Shown here piece after piece: positions 12,186-21,524 of a stretch of DNA of 64,000 bases; positions within the stretch are counted from its first letter, which is position 1; every line of letters starts with the position of its first letter. Made by a program: the position numbers and the translations under genes. The DNA lies in NCBI GenBank assembly GCA_028282805.1, contig JANQHD010000051.1, positions 1 to 64,000 of the forward strand, read 5' to 3'. The stretch comes from Phycisphaeraceae bacterium. Its GTDB lineage: Bacteria > Planctomycetota > Phycisphaerae > Phycisphaerales > Zrk34. Under the pieces are notes generated by a model that had not been told where the DNA came from, did no database searches, and was given only the letters and a program-made list of their open reading frames with translations.

Positions 12186-12239
12186 CTAACGCATTTCTCA
12201 TACGCCATTAATGGCCCGCTAACCGCCCATGGATATCAC
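12186..12239 (+). promoter_or_regulatory. proposed Pho box and -10 element of phoB
   Basis: Heptamers CTAACGC (12186), CTCATAC (12197), TTAATGG (12208) and CTAACCG (12219) recur at exactly 11-bp steps, like the 11-bp repeats bound by PhoB. Eight bp after the last comes TATCAC (12234-12239), four of six matches to a -10. The same heptamer type, period and 8-bp gap occur before pstS. The third repeat is poor. It implies autoregulation of phoB, and a transcription start downstream of the ATG at 12229. Confidence 0.5.
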
Positions 12240-12270: not shown

Positions 12271-13002
12271 ATGGCCATTGCGACAAAGCAGACGACAGAA
12301 AAGCCGTACCGCGTGTTGATCGTCGAGGATGAGCCCGACCAGCAGGAGTTGCTGCGCTACAACCTGACGCGTGACGGTTTCGACGTGAGCTGCGCGGGCA
12401 CGGGTTCGCAGGCGTTGGCGTTGCTGGAAGCCGAGACGCCGGACGTGATCGTGCTGGACCTGATGCTGCCGGGCGTCGATGGGCTGGAGGTCTGTCGGAC
12501 GATCCGTCGTCGGCCCCAGACGCAGCACGTGCCGATCGTCATGCTCACGGCGCGCAGCGAAGACTCGGACATCGTCACGGGCCTGGAGCTCGGGGCCGAC
12601 GATTACGTGACCAAGCCCTACAGCCCGCGCGTGCTGCTGGCGCGTGTGCGTGCGGTCATGCGAGCCCGGGCTATGGGCGCCAACGGCAACGACGAGGGCG
12701 AGACGATCATCAAGCACGGCGAGCTCGAGGTGCGACCCGAACGCTTCGAGGCGACGATCGACGGCGAGCCGGTGGGCCTCAGCGGCACGGAGTTCCGCAT
12801 CCTCGTGCTGCTGGCCGGCAAGCCGGGGCGGGTGTTCACACGGGCGCAGATCATCGCCGCGGTGCACGGCGAGAACTGCGCGGTGACCGACCGCAGCGTC
12901 GACGTGCACGTGTTCTGGCTGCGGCAGAAGCTGGGGGCGACCGGCCGGCTGATCGAGGCCGTCCGCGGGGTCGGCTACCGGTTTAGGGACACGGGCCACT
13001 GA
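12271..13002 (+). CDS. phoB: PhoB-type response regulator (OmpR/PhoB family)
   Basis: The 243-residue protein has a receiver domain (about 13-130) with acidic pair Glu19-Asp20, phospho-acceptor Asp63 (VLDLMLPG), Thr93 and Lys115 (VTKPYSP), and a winged-helix output domain (about 150-240) ending IEAVRGVGYRF. It lies 184 bp upstream of pstS, so PhoB is the natural assignment. I chose the ATG at 12271 because AAGGA lies 10 nt upstream and a proposed promoter starts transcription after the earlier in-frame ATG at 12229, which has no ribosome site. No histidine kinase gene lies next to it, which is unusual for PhoB. Confidence 0.88.
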   Translation: MAIATKQTTEKPYRVLIVEDEPDQQELLRYNLTRDGFDVSCAGTGSQALALLEAETPDVIVLDLMLPGVDGLEVCRTIRRRPQTQHVPIVMLTARSEDSDIVTGLELGADDYVTKPYSPRVLLARVRAVMRARAMGANGNDEGETIIKHGELEVRPERFEATIDGEPVGLSGTEFRILVLLAGKPGRVFTRAQIIAAVHGENCAVTDRSVDVHVFWLRQKLGATGRLIEAVRGVGYRFRDTGH

Positions 13003-13068: not shown

Positions 13069-13122
13069 CTAACACAATCCTCACATTGCGCTGACGTGGC
13101 GCTAACAGAGCGATTTTAGATT
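13069..13122 (+). promoter_or_regulatory. proposed four-repeat Pho box and -10 element of pstS
   Basis: Four heptamers recur at exactly 11-bp spacing: CTAACAC (13069), CTCACAT (13080), CTGACGT (13091) and CTAACAG (13102), consensus CTNACR. Eight bp after the last is TAGATT (13117-13122), four of six matches to a -10. In E. coli, PhoB binds 11-bp direct repeats that replace the -35 box just upstream of the -10, which is the arrangement here. The pstS start is 64 bp downstream of the -10. Confidence 0.65.
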
Positions 13123-13186: not shown

Positions 13187-14173
13187 ATGAAGACGAACTG
13201 GATGGTTCAAACGTTGGCCGCGGTCGCGCTGGGCGCGAGCGTGGCGATCGCGGCGGTGACCCTGGACGACCGTCTGCCTGATTACGAACCGACCTCGGGT
13301 GTCAGCGGCACCATCAAGAGCGTCGGCTCGGACACCATGAACAACCTGATGGCGCTGTGGGGCGAAGGCTTCCGCAAGGAGTACCCCAACGTGCTGATCG
13401 AGATCGAGGGCAAGGGCTCCTCGACCGCGCCGCCGGCGTTGAAGGAGGGCACCTCGAACTTCGGCCCGATGAGCCGGAAGATGAAGAGCTCCGAGGTCGA
13501 CGACTTCGAGGAGAAGATCGGCTACAAGCCCAGCTACGTCCGCACGTCGATCGACATGCTCGCCGTGTTCGTCCACAAGGACAACCCGATCGCCACCAAG
13601 GGCCTGACCCTCGAGCAGCTCGACGGCCTCTTCTCCAAGACCTACAAGTCCGGCTCGGAGAACATCACCACCTGGGGCGACGTGGGCCTGACCGGCGAGT
13701 GGGCGAGCAAGCCGATCTCGCTGTACGGCCGCAACTCCGCCTCGGGCACCTACGGCTACTTCAAGAAGCACGCGCTGTTCAAGGGTGACTACAAGGACAC
13801 CGTCAAGGAGCAGCCCGGCTCGTCGGCCGTGGTCCAAGGCGTGGCCAACGACAAGTACGCCATCGGTTACTCGGGCATCGGTTACAAGACCGCCGACGTG
13901 GCCGTGGTGCCGATCGCGCCCAAGGGCACGACCGACTACATCGACGCGACCCCGGCCAACGCCTCGACCTACCCGCTGGCCCGCTTCCTCTACCTGTACG
14001 TCAACTACAAGCCCAACAGCAAGCTCGACCCGCTCCGCGCCGAGTTCCTGACCTACATCTTCAGCCAGCAGGGTCAGGCCGCGGTGCTCAAGGACGGCTA
14101 CCTGCCGGTCGACTTCTCGATCGCCAAGGAAGACCTCGGGCAGTTCGGCATCACGGTCCAGGAAAACAAGTGA
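13187..14173 (+). CDS. pstS: periplasmic phosphate-binding protein of the Pst transporter
   Basis: PstS captures phosphate in the periplasm and delivers it to PstCA. The 328-residue protein has a signal peptide (MKTNWMVQTLAAVALGASVA region) and a PstS-like binding fold: VGSDTMNNLM near residue 46, EGKGSSTAPPAL near 74, GPMSRKM near 93, and GRNSASGTYGYF in the middle, the typical phosphate-contacting segments. AAAGGAA lies just before the ATG. It follows a proposed Pho box and is separated from pstC by a strong terminator, which would favour high PstS output relative to the membrane parts. No lipobox is visible, so it is probably soluble. Confidence 0.93.
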   Translation: MKTNWMVQTLAAVALGASVAIAAVTLDDRLPDYEPTSGVSGTIKSVGSDTMNNLMALWGEGFRKEYPNVLIEIEGKGSSTAPPALKEGTSNFGPMSRKMKSSEVDDFEEKIGYKPSYVRTSIDMLAVFVHKDNPIATKGLTLEQLDGLFSKTYKSGSENITTWGDVGLTGEWASKPISLYGRNSASGTYGYFKKHALFKGDYKDTVKEQPGSSAVVQGVANDKYAIGYSGIGYKTADVAVVPIAPKGTTDYIDATPANASTYPLARFLYLYVNYKPNSKLDPLRAEFLTYIFSQQGQAAVLKDGYLPVDFSIAKEDLGQFGITVQENK

Positions 14174-14244: not shown

Positions 14245-14298
14245 CCAACAACCCCGGCGCCAAGGGCCCGCACCCCGTTGCCCCGACCGAGTCGTTAC

Positions 14299-16968
14299 AT
14301 GAACGAGCAATCCAAGGCCTTCACCGGACGCGGCCGCCGAAAAGACACACGCTGGACCGTCAAGGCGGCCGACACGGTCTCGCACGCCATCATCACCGTC
14401 GGCGGCATCGGCACGATCGTCGCCGTGTCCGCCGTGGCGCTGATCTTGCTGATCGTCGTGGTGCCGCTGTTTGTGCCGGCCAAGGCCGACACCCGCGACC
14501 AGTTCGACAACGCGCGGGCCAAGGCGTGCCTGCACCTGGGCATCGACGAGTACCGCACGCTCGGCTGGGCCATCTTCGACGACGGCTCGATCGACCTGTT
14601 CCGCCTCGACCGCGACGACGAGGCGGCCGCGCGGGTGATCGAAAGCAAATCGTTGACCGACGGCGAACGGCCCACGGCGTGGTCCTTCCCCATCGACGGC
14701 GAGCGCGTGATGGCCGGCTTCGCCGACGGCACCGTGCAGGTCTACCGCATCCGTTACCGCACTCAGTTCATCGATGAAGAAGACGCCCCCGCCGAGCTGC
14801 TCGACCTGAAGGAAGGGCGGGTCGCGCTATTCCAGAACGGCATCGTGCAGCGGATCCGCTCGGGCCAACTCCGCTTGCAGACGCTGCGCATCTCCACCGA
14901 AACCGAACGCGTCGAGCTGTTCGACGGCCCGGTGCTGCGGCTCGACCACCTCGTGGACAGCGGCGAATTGAAGCTCGTCGCCTACGGCCAGGCGGGCGGT
15001 CAGGCCGTGTTGCGTTACGCCGCGGCCGACATGGAAGACGAGGTCGAATCGTTCGACGACACGTACGACCTGCCCTACGAGCCCCACGCCGACCAGCAAC
15101 CGCGTTTCGTCAAACTCGTGGGCACCGGCGGCGACGCGATCGTGTGCTGGGCCGACGGCTCGGGCAACCGGGTCAACACCTCGGTGCCGGCCAAGGCGCA
15201 GCTCGTGCAACGGTTCGACCTGGTGCCCGACGAGGGCGTCGAGTTGAGCCGGTTGGCGTTCCTGCTCGGCCGATCGACGCTGATCGTGGGCGAATCGTCG
15301 GGCAACGTGACCGGCTGGTTCATGGCCCCGATCGAACAACCCGCCACCGAGGCCCGCGACGCGACGCTCGGCGACGACACCCGCACCCTGGTGCGAGCCA
15401 AGCGGATGGACCGGGTGGGCGACGCGGCGATCACGGCGATCGTCTCCTCGACGCGCAGCCGCATGTTCGTCACCGGCGACGCCGCGGGCCGCGTGCGGGC
15501 TTACTACATGACCAGCGAGAACCAACTGCTGGAGATGCCGGCCGAGCAGACCGGGGCCGTGCAAGCCGTGGCGTTCGGCCCGAAGCAGGACGCGATCGTC
15601 GCCCTGACCGACACCCACCTGGTCGATTGGGACTTCGAGCCGATGCACCCCGAAGCCACGCTGGCTTCGCTGTTCCTGCCGGTCTGGTACGAGGGCTACG
15701 CCGACCCGAAGCACGACTGGCAGAGCTCCGCGGCGACCGACGACTACGAGCCGAAGTACGGCCTGATGCCGCTGGCGTTCGGCACGATCAAGGCGACGTT
15801 TTACGCGATGCTCATCGGTGCGCCGCTGGCGTTGCTCGCGGCGATCTTCACCAGCGAGTTCCTGCCGCCGAAGTGGAAGGCGCGCATCAAGCCGACCATC
15901 GAGCTGATGGCGTCGCTGCCGTCGGTGGTGCTCGGCTTCCTCGCGGCGCTGGTGTTCGCGCCTTACCTCGAAAAGTTCATCCCCGCCACGCTGGCGATCT
16001 TCTTCGCCATCCCGTTCACGGTCATGCTCGCCGCGTACGTCTGGCAGCTGCTGCCGTACCGCTTCACGGTGATCATGCGGCCGCACCGCTTCTGGTTCAT
16101 CCTGCTGCTGACCCTGCCCATGGGTTACCTCGTGGCCAGCACGCTCGGCCCGCCGCTCGAAAGCCTGATGTTCGACGGCAACATCAAGCGCTGGCTCAAC
16201 GGCACCAACAGCGACCCGGGCTTCGGCAACCCGGTCGGCGGCTGGGTGCTGCTGCTGCTGCCGATGGCGGCGCTGCTCGTGGGCCTGGTGATGACGGTCT
16301 ACGTCAACCCGCTCATCCGCCGGCGCACGCCCAACCTCACACGCGGCGGCGCCGCGCTGATCGACATCCTCAAGTTCCTCATCGGCGCCGCGGCGACCGT
16401 GGCCCTGGCGTTCCTCGGCGGCTTGGCGCTGTCCGGGGTCGGCCTCGACACCCGTGGGCCCTGGACCGTCTGGGGTTTCGACATGGCGATGCTCAACAAG
16501 CACGACCAACGCAACGCGCTGGTCATCGGCGCCGTCATGGGTTTCGCGATCATCCCCATCATCTACACCATCGCCGAGGACGCGCTGTCGACCGTGCCCG
16601 AGCATTTGCGCTCCGGCTCGCTCGGCGCCGGCGCCACGCCGTGGCAGACCGCCGTCCGCATCGTCGTGCCCACGGCGATGAGCGGCCTGTTCTCCGCGGT
16701 CATGATCGGCCTCGGCCGCGCCGTCGGTGAAACCATGATCGTGCTGATGGCGTTCGGCAACACGCCGGTGCTCGAGCTGAACATGTTTAACGGCGGCCGG
16801 ACGCTCGCGAGCAACATCGCCGTGGAGCTGCCCGAAGCGCCGCTGGGCTCGACGCACTACCGCGTGCTGTTCCTCGCGGCGCTGGTGCTGTTCGCCATGA
16901 CCTTCGTGCTCAACACGGTCGCCGAGGCCGTCCGCCAGCACTTCCGCAAGAAGGCGGTGTCGTTATGA
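14299..16968 (+). CDS. pstC: phosphate ABC transporter permease with large periplasmic propeller-like insert
   Basis: The 889-residue protein is almost three times as long as E. coli PstC (319). TM1 is about residues 30-55. Then about 435 residues, probably periplasmic, contain repeated beta-rich units such as TVQVYRIRY, GNVTGWFM and GRVRAYYM that look WD40/propeller-like. The permease domain runs from about 490 to the end, with the EAA-type loop AEDALSTVPEHLRSGSLGAG that contacts PstB and extra hydrophobic segments inside it. Long PstC forms are known in some proteobacteria, as I recall, but this one is longer still. The start is uncertain: the ATG at 14299 has a poor ribosome site, and a TTG lies 21 bp upstream. 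The stop overlaps the pstA start as ATGA. Confidence 0.88.
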   Translation: MNEQSKAFTGRGRRKDTRWTVKAADTVSHAIITVGGIGTIVAVSAVALILLIVVVPLFVPAKADTRDQFDNARAKACLHLGIDEYRTLGWAIFDDGSIDLFRLDRDDEAAARVIESKSLTDGERPTAWSFPIDGERVMAGFADGTVQVYRIRYRTQFIDEEDAPAELLDLKEGRVALFQNGIVQRIRSGQLRLQTLRISTETERVELFDGPVLRLDHLVDSGELKLVAYGQAGGQAVLRYAAADMEDEVESFDDTYDLPYEPHADQQPRFVKLVGTGGDAIVCWADGSGNRVNTSVPAKAQLVQRFDLVPDEGVELSRLAFLLGRSTLIVGESSGNVTGWFMAPIEQPATEARDATLGDDTRTLVRAKRMDRVGDAAITAIVSSTRSRMFVTGDAAGRVRAYYMTSENQLLEMPAEQTGAVQAVAFGPKQDAIVALTDTHLVDWDFEPMHPEATLASLFLPVWYEGYADPKHDWQSSAATDDYEPKYGLMPLAFGTIKATFYAMLIGAPLALLAAIFTSEFLPPKWKARIKPTIELMASLPSVVLGFLAALVFAPYLEKFIPATLAIFFAIPFTVMLAAYVWQLLPYRFTVIMRPHRFWFILLLTLPMGYLVASTLGPPLESLMFDGNIKRWLNGTNSDPGFGNPVGGWVLLLLPMAALLVGLVMTVYVNPLIRRRTPNLTRGGAALIDILKFLIGAAATVALAFLGGLALSGVGLDTRGPWTVWGFDMAMLNKHDQRNALVIGAVMGFAIIPIIYTIAEDALSTVPEHLRSGSLGAGATPWQTAVRIVVPTAMSGLFSAVMIGLGRAVGETMIVLMAFGNTPVLELNMFNGGRTLASNIAVELPEAPLGSTHYRVLFLAALVLFAMTFVLNTVAEAVRQHFRKKAVSL

Positions 16969-19841
16969 GTTCGCGGATCTCGGCCGACCACGAAAGCAAA
17001 GACGCGGACGTGCGGATCCCCGTGCCCGCCGACAAGCCCGCCGTGCGCCGCCGGCGCGCGGGCAAACGCACCGCCTTAGCCGCGCACGGCGAGCCGATGG
17101 TCTGGCTCACCGGCGGCTGCCTGGCGATCTGCCTGGCCATGATCGTCGGCCTGCTGGGCATGGTCTTCTGGCAGGGCGTCAAGACGTTCTGGCCCCTGCC
17201 CGTGATCCAGGTCACCACCGTCGACGGCAAGACGCACATGGGCGAACCCGCCCGCGTCCAACACTACCGCCTGACCGAGAGCATGGTCGAGGCGCTGCCC
17301 GATTCGAAACGCGCCGAAGCGGCCAAGCTGCTAACCCAGACCGAAGCCATCAAGAACTTCGCCACCGGCGAGATCGATAACATGCCCGTCGGCGAGGCGG
17401 TCCGCCGCCTGTACCGCACGGGCAACTACCGGCTGACCAGCGAGCACTTCAACTGGGTCAACGATTACGAAGTCGTCGAGACCACCCGGCCCGAGTGGGC
17501 GATGGTGATCGAACGCGAAGGGTGGGGGCGCTTCTACGGGTTCCCCGAGGCGTTCGTGGTGCAGCACCTGCGGCCGATCGGCGAACGCGAGCGGATGCTC
17601 GTCGAGGTCGAACGCCTGTTGTCGCGCGGCGTGCGCCGGCTGCCGACCGATCAGCGCCCCGCCGCCGAGGCCGTGATCGCCGGGGTGAAAAAAGAACTCC
17701 AGGCCGTGCGCAGCCAGGCGGTGGTCGATTTCATCGACGGCTTCAAATCAGACGAATCCGTCCAACGCCTCGCGCAGCTCGACAACCTCGAGACGGTCGC
17801 GCTCGACGCGCTGAAGCCGGACCAGAACGTCCGCGCCCTGCACGAGGTGTGGGAGGGCGAGCAGGCCTCGTACCAACGCTTCCGCGAGCAGCACGCTTAC
17901 GTGCGGGACAACCTCGATCGGATACACGAGATCGATCGGTACGAGGGCGGCGCCGCACGCAAGCGCGAGCGCAACGCCCGCCTGGAACTGCGCGAGATCG
18001 AGCTGGCGTACGGCAAGCGGATCCTGAAAGCCGAGCAACAGGAAGCCGCCGCCGACAAGACCAAAGAGGAGCGCGGCGGGTGGATCCAGATCGGCCAGGC
18101 CTCGCGCCGCACGATCGCCCTCGTGGAGCACGGCAACGAGATCGTCACGCAACTCAGCGTGATCGAACAGGTCAAGCTCGAGCAGACGCAACGCGCCGAA
18201 CTGCTCGACCGGGTACGCCGGCAGTACGGCAAGGACTCGCCCCGGGCGGCCCTGTTGGCGCAGGTCATCGCCGCGACCGACCGGCGGGCCGGGGCCACCG
18301 CGGCCGAGGCCCAGGCGGAGATCGACAAGGTCCGCCAGCGCATGGGCCGCCAGTTCACCTACTACGGCAAGGCGATCGGCGACGTCGGCGACGAGCTCAC
18401 CAAGCTGGTCGACGACTACATCGCGATCCAACAGGACACACGCGCCACCAACGCGGCGGTCAACACGCGCATCGCGGAGATCAAGGTCGACAACCAGCGC
18501 TTCGAATGGCGGATGCGGACCGCGCAGGGCCAGCAGGCCACGCTGCTGGTGGCCGACGTCGTCCGCGCCTACGCGCCGCAGCGGCTGGGCTTCGGCGACA
18601 AGGTCGGGGTGTACTTCTCGCGCTGGGTTGAGTTCCTCGCCGCCGACCCGCGCGAGGCCAACCAGGAAGGCGGCGTGTTCCCGCAGATCGTCGGCACCGT
18701 GCTGATGACGATCATCATGGCCATCGTCGTCGTGCCGTTCGGCGTGATGGCGGCGATGTACCTCCGCGAGTACGCCAGGGCGGGCCCGATCATCTCGGCG
18801 GTGCGGATCGCGATCAACAACCTCGCGGGCGTGCCGAGCATCGTGTTCGGCGTGTTCGGCCTGGGCTTCTTCTGCTACATGATCGGCGGCTACGTCGACG
18901 GCGGGCCGAGCGTGGTGGTGCCGGGCCGGCAGTGGTTCATCCTGATGACGGTCTTCGCCGCGATGGTCGTGTTCGGCGGGGCGTCGGCGATGTTCAACCG
19001 GGGCGGCACGAAGACGCGCGGCAGCGGCACGTCCATGGCCCTCAACGCGGTGCTGGCGTTGCCGCTGGCCCTGATCTGGGTGGCGCTGCTCGGCTTGGCG
19101 GTGGTCACGCCCTCGCTGGTCGTGCGCCTGGCGGTCGGCTTCATGTTTGTGGTCCACGCGATCTTCATCGGGCTCGCGGCGCAGCACAACCCCAACGACC
19201 AGCGCTCGACCATGCAGCGCGTCATGTTCACCTCGGGCATGATGACCTGCGTGCTGGCGTCGATCACGGCGGTGTTCCTGGTCGCGGTCACGCCGTTCTT
19301 CGACGGCTTCTACGCCGCGTCGGTCAGCGACGGCTCGCCGACGTTCGGCAAGGGGGCGCTGATCTGGGCGTCGTTCACGCTGGCGCTGCTGACGCTGCCG
19401 GTGGTGATCGTGGCGACGGAAGAGGCCTTGGCCGCGGTGCCGAACTCGATGCGCGAGGGGTCGTACGCCTGCGGCGCGAGCAAGTGGCAGACGATCAAGC
19501 GGATCGTGCTGCCGCGTGCGATGCCGGGCATCATGACGGGCATGATCCTGGCCATGGCGCGCGGCGCCGGCGAGGTGGCGCCGCTGATGCTGGTCGGCGC
19601 GGTGAAGATCGCGCCGGAGCTGCCGATTTCCACCGAGCCGCCGTTCGGCGTCAACCGCAGCTTCCTGCACCTGGGCTTCCACATCTACGACCTGGGCTTC
19701 CAGAGCCCCAACGCCGAGGCGGCCAAGCCCATGGTCTTCACGACCACGCTGCTGCTGATCCTGATCATCGCGTTGCTGAACATCGTATCGATCTGGCTGC
19801 GTACGCGGCTGCGCAAGAAGTTTGAATCCTCCGCTTTCTGA
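16965..19841 (+). CDS. pstA: phosphate ABC transporter permease with ~500-residue periplasmic insert
   Basis: The 958-residue protein compares with 296 in E. coli PstA. A basic N-terminus precedes TM1 (about 44-70, [20 protein letters not shown]). About residues 75-570 are hydrophilic, helical and rich in Glu, Arg and Gln, with likely coiled coils near 320-345 and 430-520. From about 574 the permease domain begins ([17 protein letters not shown]), with extra hydrophobic segments and the EAA loop [20 protein letters not shown] near 820-840. Its start overlaps the pstC stop by 4 bp, so the two are probably made together. The matching inserts in both permeases suggest their outer parts work as a pair. 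Confidence 0.88.
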
Positions 19842-19861: not shown

Positions 19862-20785
19862 ATGAAGACGACGAACATGAGCACCGAACCCATCGAATCC
19901 AGCCCCGTCGCGCCGCCGCCGGTCATGGGCGCCGACGCCGTGGCCGCGTCCAACATGGGCGGCGAGCTGCTCGACGCGATCAACCGCGGCGAGCACATCG
20001 AAAGCGAGATCCACGAGGCGATCCACACCGAGCAGATCGTGCTCGACGTGCTGAACTTCGAGCTGTGGTACGGCGCCAAGCAGGCCCTGTTCGAGATCAA
20101 CATGAAGGTGCCCAAGGGCAAGGTGACCTCGCTCATCGGGCCCTCCGGCTGCGGCAAGTCGACCCTGCTGCGTTCGGTCAACCGCATCAACGACCTGATC
20201 GACATCGTCAAGATCCGCGGCGACATGCTGCTGAACAACGACTCGATCTATGACCCCGGCGTCGACGTGATCGAGCTGCGCAAGCGCATGGGCATGGTCT
20301 TCCAGAAGCCCAACCCGTTCCCCATGAGCATCTACGAGAACGTCGTCTACCCGCTCCGCATCGACGGCGAGCGGAACAAGGGCGTGCTCGACGAGGTGTG
20401 CGAGCACTCGCTGAAGGGCGCGGCGTTGTGGGACGAGGTCAAGGACCGCCTGCACGAGAACGCGCTGGGCATGTCCGGCGGCCAGCAGCAGCGGCTATGC
20501 ATCGCCCGCGCGATCGCCGCCGAGCCCGAGGTGCTGTTGATGGACGAGCCCTGTTCGGCGCTCGACCCGATCGCCACGGGCAAGATCGAAGACCTCATCG
20601 AGGAGCTCAAGGGCGAGTACTCGATCCTGATCGTGACCCACAACATGCAGCAGGCGTCGCGCGCCAGCGACTACACGGCGTTCATGTACCTCGGGCGCCT
20701 GGTCGAGTACGGGCCGACGAAAGACGTGTTCACCAACCCGCACCTGCGCGAGACGCAGGACTACATCTCGGGGCGTTTCGGGTAA
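19862..20785 (+). CDS. pstB: phosphate ABC transporter ATP-binding protein
   Basis: PstB is the ATPase that drives phosphate import through PstCA. The 307-residue protein has Walker [10 protein letters not shown] at 93-101, the signature MSGGQQQRL, Walker B VLLMDEP with the PstB-typical CSALDP, and the switch THNMQQA. The first 58 or so residues are an extra Pro/Ala-rich and then acidic segment absent from the 257-residue E. coli protein; its role is unknown. GGAGA lies about 9 nt before the ATG at 19862; another ATG 15 bp downstream is possible. It sits 20 bp after pstA in the pst operon. Confidence 0.95.
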
Positions 20786-20852: not shown

Positions 20853-21524
20853 ATGTCCATCCACCTGCAACGACAATTCGACAAGTTGAAGAAGCTGATC
20901 CTCTCGCTGGGGGCCATGGTGGAAGAAGCGCTCGAGGCTTCGCTGCGCGCCGTGGAGAACCGCGACGCCGAGCTCGCCGACAAGGTGATCGCCGGCGACA
21001 AGAAGATCGACATGATGGAGATCGACGTGGAGGAGGAGTGCCTGCACACCCTCGCCCTGCACCAGCCGGTGGCGTTCGACCTGCGTTACGTCGTGGCGGT
21101 GTTGAAGATCAACAACGACCTGGAGCGGATCGCGGACCTGGCGACGAACATCTGCGAGCAGGCGATCTTCCTGGCCGAGCACGAGGTGGCGGCGGAGATC
21201 CCCTACGACATGCACGGCATGTCGCTCAAGGCGCGTGAGATGGTCAAGCGGGCGCTCGACGCGCTGGTCAACGTCGACCCCAACACCGCGCAGGCGGTGC
21301 GCGACATGGACGAGCAGGTCGACGACATGCACCGCGAGATGTACGTGCAGGTCGAGCGGGCGATCCGCGACAACCCGCACCAGCTGACGCAGCACATCCA
21401 TTACCTCAACGTCTCGCGTCAGCTCGAACGCATCGGCGACCACGCCTGCAACATCGCCGAGGACGTGCTGTACATGGCCAAGGGCGACATCGCCCGCCAC
21501 CACGTCACCCGCGTCGAGGCCTGA
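20853..21524 (+). CDS. phoU: phosphate signalling complex protein PhoU
   Basis: PhoU links the Pst transporter to Pho regulon control and represses it when phosphate is plentiful. The 223-residue all-helical protein has two PhoU repeats (about 1-105 and 110-220). The metal-binding motifs are seen as EIDVEEECLHTLALHQPVA and NNDLERIADLATNICE in repeat 1, and RQLERIGDHACNIAEDV in repeat 2. It is the last gene of the pst block, 67 bp after pstB. In most bacteria PhoU acts through the kinase PhoR, which is not encoded nearby. Confidence 0.95.
   Translation: MSIHLQRQFDKLKKLILSLGAMVEEALEASLRAVENRDAELADKVIAGDKKIDMMEIDVEEECLHTLALHQPVAFDLRYVVAVLKINNDLERIADLATNICEQAIFLAEHEVAAEIPYDMHGMSLKAREMVKRALDALVNVDPNTAQAVRDMDEQVDDMHREMYVQVERAIRDNPHQLTQHIHYLNVSRQLERIGDHACNIAEDVLYMAKGDIARHHVTRVEA

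Follow-up and report, generated by a model that had tools for sequence, protein, structure and literature searches.

A predicted Pho box of the Bacillus type, built of four 11-bp units, precedes the pstSCAB-phoU operon in a planctomycete

Pho boxes are known from proteobacteria, Firmicutes, actinobacteria and cyanobacteria, and four units are typical of the core Pho sites of Bacillus subtilis. Such boxes are defined as tandem units of 11 nt (PMC4415409). The PhoP box of B. subtilis consists of direct repeats of TT(A/T/C)ACA separated by about 5 bp, which places them in 11-bp steps (PMC3036859). The Pho box of Escherichia coli has been described as lying 10 bp upstream of the -10 element, and the cyanobacterial SphR box, CTTAACCT, as an 8+3 arrangement, repeated in tandem every 11 bp ahead of pst genes (PMC1906773). 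A definition of the Pho box for Planctomycetota was not found in the literature searched.

The window, i.e., the whole stretch of 64,000 nucleotides of a Phycisphaeraceae bacterium that was analyzed, contains four tandem direct repeats on the plus strand: CTAACAC (unit 1, 13069 to 13075), CTCACAT (unit 2, 13080 to 13086), CTGACGT (unit 3, 13091 to 13097) and CTAACAG (unit 4, 13102 to 13108, at the expected -35 position). Rereading of the sequence bore out the exact 11-bp steps between the starts at 13069, 13080, 13091 and 13102 that a sequence-only reading of this DNA had described, as well as its gap of 8 bp to a -10-like hexamer, the last heptamer ending at 13108 and TAGATT occupying 13117 to 13122 (plus strand), 15 nt past the start of unit 4. 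The array is thus placed over the -35 region in fixed phase to a -10 element of the form TANNNT. The same reading had called the repeat a CTNACR heptamer; the repeat stands, whereas its length does not, as CTNACR has six letters and the core is a hexamer followed by a 5-bp spacer.

The array does precede pstS, as had been proposed: the gene for the phosphate-binding protein starts with the ATG at 13187 and extends to 14173 (TIGR02136, 229.6 bits, over the cut-off). It is followed on the same strand by pstC in a long form with an uncertain start codon (14278 to 16968, TIGR02138), a long pstA (16965 to 19841, TIGR00974), pstB (19862 to 20785, TIGR00972) and phoU (20853 to 21524, TIGR02135), all of which score over the respective cut-offs. 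We interpret 13069 to 13122 with high confidence as the Pho-dependent promoter of this pstSCAB-phoU operon and as a predicted PhoB site. The pstC and pstA products (896 and 958 aa) are about three times as long as usual, with long extra stretches before and between the permease segments, and the insert of pstC may be beta-propeller-like as judged by eye. Upstream, the opposite strand encodes a CHAD-domain protein and a long open reading frame whose sequence reads as a putative ppk.

Genome-wide statistics were obtained from pattern and model searches of the 3.9-Mb assembly. When three CTNAC units at 11-bp steps were sought, the pstS array was the sole match in the genome, the reversed pattern used as a control giving one match. 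Four YTNAY units at 11-bp steps without mismatch occur at two sites, 12186 and 13069, which both belong to the pho locus and lie 0.9 kb apart; with up to one mismatch, the same two sites and two register shifts thereof were obtained, while the reversed control gave seven matches. A sequence-only model made from the pstS sites of 11 other species, without this genome, had its sole genome match at 13070 to 13121 (E 8.6e-5; matches considered up to E 10). The site at 12186 was missed by this search, owing to filter or threshold, and was found by the exact pattern search. A random occurrence of phased CTNAC units across the genome, which would have spoken against the earlier proposal, was not seen: the box stands before phosphate-acquisition genes and is rare elsewhere in the genome. 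No Pho boxes were found in the scanned regions upstream of the genome's own phoBR operon on contig C6 or of its porins, and the strong-site regulon of this genome therefore seems to comprise only phoB2 and pstSCAB-phoU.

The second exact four-unit match is a predicted Pho box on the plus strand (12186 to 12225) with the units CTAACGC, CTCATAC, TTAATGG and CTAACCG starting at 12186, 12197, 12208 and 12219. Its score was 20.3 with a matrix built without this genome, compared to maxima of 2.4 to 9.4 in five shuffled windows. At the +15 position stands the -10-like hexamer TATCAC (12234 to 12239, plus strand), whose last base is off consensus; in the congener (genome G001), the hexamer at the same place is TATCAA. 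The gene downstream, phoB2 (12271 to 13002, plus strand), encodes a pst-linked paralog of the phoB-type response regulators with receiver and Trans_reg_C domains (TIGR02154, 238.8 bits, below the cut-off of 296.2), and the congener carries a box upstream of the same gene. The ATG at 12271 is the likelier start codon compared to the ATG at 12229, since the inferred -10 element at 12234 would put the transcription start downstream of the latter and AAGGA precedes the former.

Four-unit arrays upstream of pstS were found in 11 further genomes when the same family and order were scanned. The box of one genome of the order (G032) is almost identical to that of a locus named Phycisphaeraceae bacterium (L069), and the named loci indicate Planctomycetota. 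Unit 1 is kept in these 11 relatives, and in the 12 pstS sites compared the C and T of unit 2 and the T of unit 3, the weaker unit, are invariant, as is the TA of unit 4 (12/12). The 48 units of the 12 sites give the consensus YT(A/C)AC(A), repeated every 11 bp (position 1, C in 29 and T in 15; position 2, T in 48; position 3, A in 27 and C in 13; position 4, A in 41; position 5, C in 36; position 6, A in 26). The sites of the relatives were initially chosen by a score inspired by the motif of the window, and the lag and -10 tests as well as the scans of divergent pstS genes and of the phylum guard against this selection without removing the bias. The lag and -10 tests do not depend on the pattern of the window. 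In 29 relatives, with the window left out, the excess of TNA pairs was greatest at a lag of 11 (z 8.7), followed by lags of 33 and 22, and YTNAY pairs were in excess at lags of 11, 22 and 33 (z 24, 12 and 8). For the -10 test the 12 sites were picked on the repeats alone; TANNNT stands at +15 from the start of unit 4 in 11 of them, and among the offsets of 6 to 29 it occurs nowhere else in any of the 12.

Ten of the 14 non-training model matches in 60 relatives precede pstS or the congener phoB2, including pstS genes whose products are only distantly related to the PstS of the window, and four are without a clear phosphate gene. A scan of 294 genomes from the phylum gave 18 further matches, of which 13 precede phosphate-linked genes, namely those for pstS-type binding proteins (three), Porin_O_P proteins (four), phoB-type regulators (two), PhoX, PhoU_div, a Na/Pi cotransporter with a PhoU domain and a pstB-like ATPase; of the other five, one lies ahead of a Porin_5 gene and four lack a clear link. 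In the congener, a further box stands ahead of a Porin_O_P (phosphate porin) gene, which is itself followed by the phoBR pair. The whole-genome scan, the relatives and the phylum-wide scan thus support the suggestion that the array defines the Pho box of this lineage, as a predicted site.

In two families of the order (f2 and f3), the arrays before pstS are drifted (TTAGCGC, TGAACAC; loci L215, L216, L226, L227 and L235) or absent, which speaks against the Pho-box reading, and several f3 genomes have GANNCT-like hexamers at the -10 position. In the three PhoB proteins that were read for f2 and f3, the helix is of the SSR(T/A)(I/V)DVHV type, which together with the drifted boxes is suggestive of a further shift in specificity. 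One genome (G053) carries two four-unit arrays about 90 bp apart before a single pstS (C1:3843318 and 3843408; L129 and L142). Very strong boxes precede the gene for a secreted-looking protein without a Pfam match (L253 in G321, score 39.9) and that for an HMA_2 domain protein (L268 in G104, matrix score 34.6), two possible phosphate-starvation genes that have gone unrecognised. In pstS boxes of the Krumholzibacteriia type (L038, L045, L048, L051, L076), units 1, 2 and 4 are kept (TTTACA/CTAACA) with TA(A/C)CGT at +15, and unit 3 is consistently off consensus (GTCGTAA, GTTGTAG, CAGGTAA), as if three units sufficed or another reader acted there.

Compared to the described boxes, the planctomycete array agrees with the definition by tandem 11-nt units and comes closest to that of B. 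subtilis, since YT(A/C)ACA fits the unit TT(A/T/C)ACA. It differs from the Bacillus box in that the first base is C or T, with C commoner, and in that the spacer is strictly 5 bp instead of 5 ± 2; moreover, its targets include genes of the Gram-negative type (porins), unlike those in Bacillus. The SphR box likewise consists of 11-bp tandem repeats ahead of pst genes but has another consensus, and three units have been described as its minimum. In gammaproteobacteria (Shewanella and other pstS promoters), the GTCAY core of the unit is strong and the bases ahead of it are weak, and the -10 element starts 15 nt after the mapped G in 17 of 25 pstS promoters. The E. coli/gammaproteobacterial PhoB box (CTGTCAY, 7+4) thus has in common with the planctomycete box the 11-bp tandem units and a TNAY core, and, with CTGTCAY aligned as nnYTNAY, the distance of 15 nt from unit to -10. 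However, the base before the core is G in 95 of 100 gammaproteobacterial units and C or T in the planctomycete ones, and the base after the T is C in the former and free, mostly A or C, in the latter; the planctomycete units accordingly do not conform to the E. coli-type unit CTGTCAY, in which the third base is G and the fifth is C. The proposed likeness to the geometry of the E. coli Pho box holds, being identical once GTCAY is aligned with YTNAY, and in our reading of the register the distance of 10 bp in E. coli against 8 bp here results from heptamer frames that are offset by two bases. The heptamer had also been taken to be a different one, which is true with respect to E. coli (mainly at the base before the core and the middle base) but not with respect to the B. 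subtilis unit TT(A/T/C)ACA (PMC3036859).

Since 11 bp correspond to about one turn, the four units would lie on one helix face as two tandem Pho boxes, in an array that would span roughly -60 to -20 and replace a -35 element, with TAGATT 15 nt past the point where unit 4 begins. When phosphate runs short, PhoB in its phosphorylated form would occupy the array head-to-tail with one effector domain per unit, which means two PhoB dimers on four units, and would bring sigma-70 RNA polymerase to the -10 element. Through the twin array at 12186, phoB2 would come under the same control, either as autoregulation or as feed-forward. The repeats, their conservation, their fixed phase to the -10 element, the gene context and the specificity across the genome are observed, and binding by PhoB, its dependence on phosphorylation and activation as the direction of control are what we infer.

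It is conceivable that the array is read by another regulator of the OmpR/PhoB family that happens to control pst, without PhoB being involved. Direct repeats of 11 bp are used by several regulators of this family, for example by PhoP of Mycobacterium tuberculosis, with 7-bp motifs and a 4-bp spacer (PMC4832192). However, the matches across the phylum track phosphate genes of many kinds, and just two regulators of the genome fit the PhoB model over both receiver and effector domain, which makes this explanation very improbable. That common pentamers ahead of an ordinary promoter came into phase by chance we consider next to impossible. CTNAC pairs at 11 bp do exist elsewhere, with one other pair within the window, but the array is conserved across genera of one order, keeps a fixed offset to the -10 element and was matched genome-wide by a model blind to this genome. 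A chance origin was rejected on the uniqueness of the array in the genome, this blind match, and the lag and -10 offset tests.

Accepting PhoB as the predicted reader, the genome offers two candidates. Its two close PhoB-type regulators, which alone fit the model as above, are PhoB2 (C35:12271) and a copy on contig C6 (C6:39110) that is encoded together with a PhoR-type kinase (C6:39980); the genome thus encodes a PhoB-PhoR pair, and the C6 PhoB, the C6 PhoR and PhoB2 all score below the NCBIfam cut-offs, which for the two regulators is a point against the Pho-box reading. The C6 locus (C6:39110-41017, L201) is without a Pho box. Among the relatives searched outside the genus, each has at most one comparable PhoB match. 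In the tree, PhoB2 of this genome and of the congener forms a long, fully supported, genus-specific branch, and the PhoR-linked copies cluster with the PhoB proteins of other genomes, apart from PhoB2. The recognition helices read DRSVDVHVFWLR in PhoB2, with a Phe-Trp pair, DRSVDVQIVSLR in the C6 copy and DRSVDVQVVALR in many relatives.

Despite its position, the neighboring PhoB2 is not obviously the regulator of pstS. In favor of the box being read mainly by this specialised paralog rather than by the PhoR-linked C6 PhoB, its gene adjoins pstS, the phoB2 promoter contains the second box in this genome as well as in the congener, and the Asp, Thr and Lys motifs typical of receivers are retained in its sequence. 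However, the same type of box is found outside the genus, where the single close PhoB groups apart and has a different recognition helix, no kinase gene adjoins phoB2, and its recognition residues are changed (HVFWLR compared to QIVSLR); we regard this assignment as less likely than not. Since relatives without PhoB2 carry the same box, a PhoB of the C6 type is the likelier candidate for the ancestral reader, and PhoB2, under its own box, may act as a second reader or as a feed-forward element.

In the complex of E. coli PhoB with DNA, Arg201 contacts a guanine through a specific hydrogen bond, and Thr194 and Val197 touch thymines (PMC3973317). We located the position of Arg201 in other helices by eye, with the conserved VDV-x-x-x-x-LR motif as the anchor of the alignment, and limited the comparison to loci with PhoB and pstS together, which represent few lineages. 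The helix DRTVDVHIRRLR pairs with GTCAY in gammaproteobacteria, TRTVDTHMRRLR with GTAAC (unit GTAACA) in KSB1 (L083), and SRTVDTHVRRLR with GTGAC in Acidobacteria (L099, two units only). In contrast to these G-first units, GRSVDVQIAALR and similar helices pair with TTTACA/CTAACA in Krumholzibacteriia, and in Planctomycetota Ala or Ser at the 201 position pairs with YTNAC; PhoB2 of the genus has Phe-Trp at 200-201 (E. coli numbering). The relation between residue 201 and the first base seems to be a correlation over few lineages. It would fit a tentative scheme, to which we give somewhat less than even chances, in which residue 201 determines the base that opens the unit (Arg for G, Ala/Ser for C/T) and PhoB2, with its Phe-Trp and its own box, serves as a feed-forward second reader. 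With the structural contact in E. coli behind it, the correlation is a candidate specificity rule.

Taken together, the unit is of no new kind but of the Bacillus type, and the array is an ordinary but well-supported regulatory element with predicted PhoB binding, to which this genus adds a divergent, pst-linked second PhoB paralog whose gene is preceded by a separate Pho box. With four YT(A/C)ACA units at 11-bp steps and TANNNT at +15, the Pho regulons of Planctomycetota, an environmentally common phylum, become predictable from sequence.
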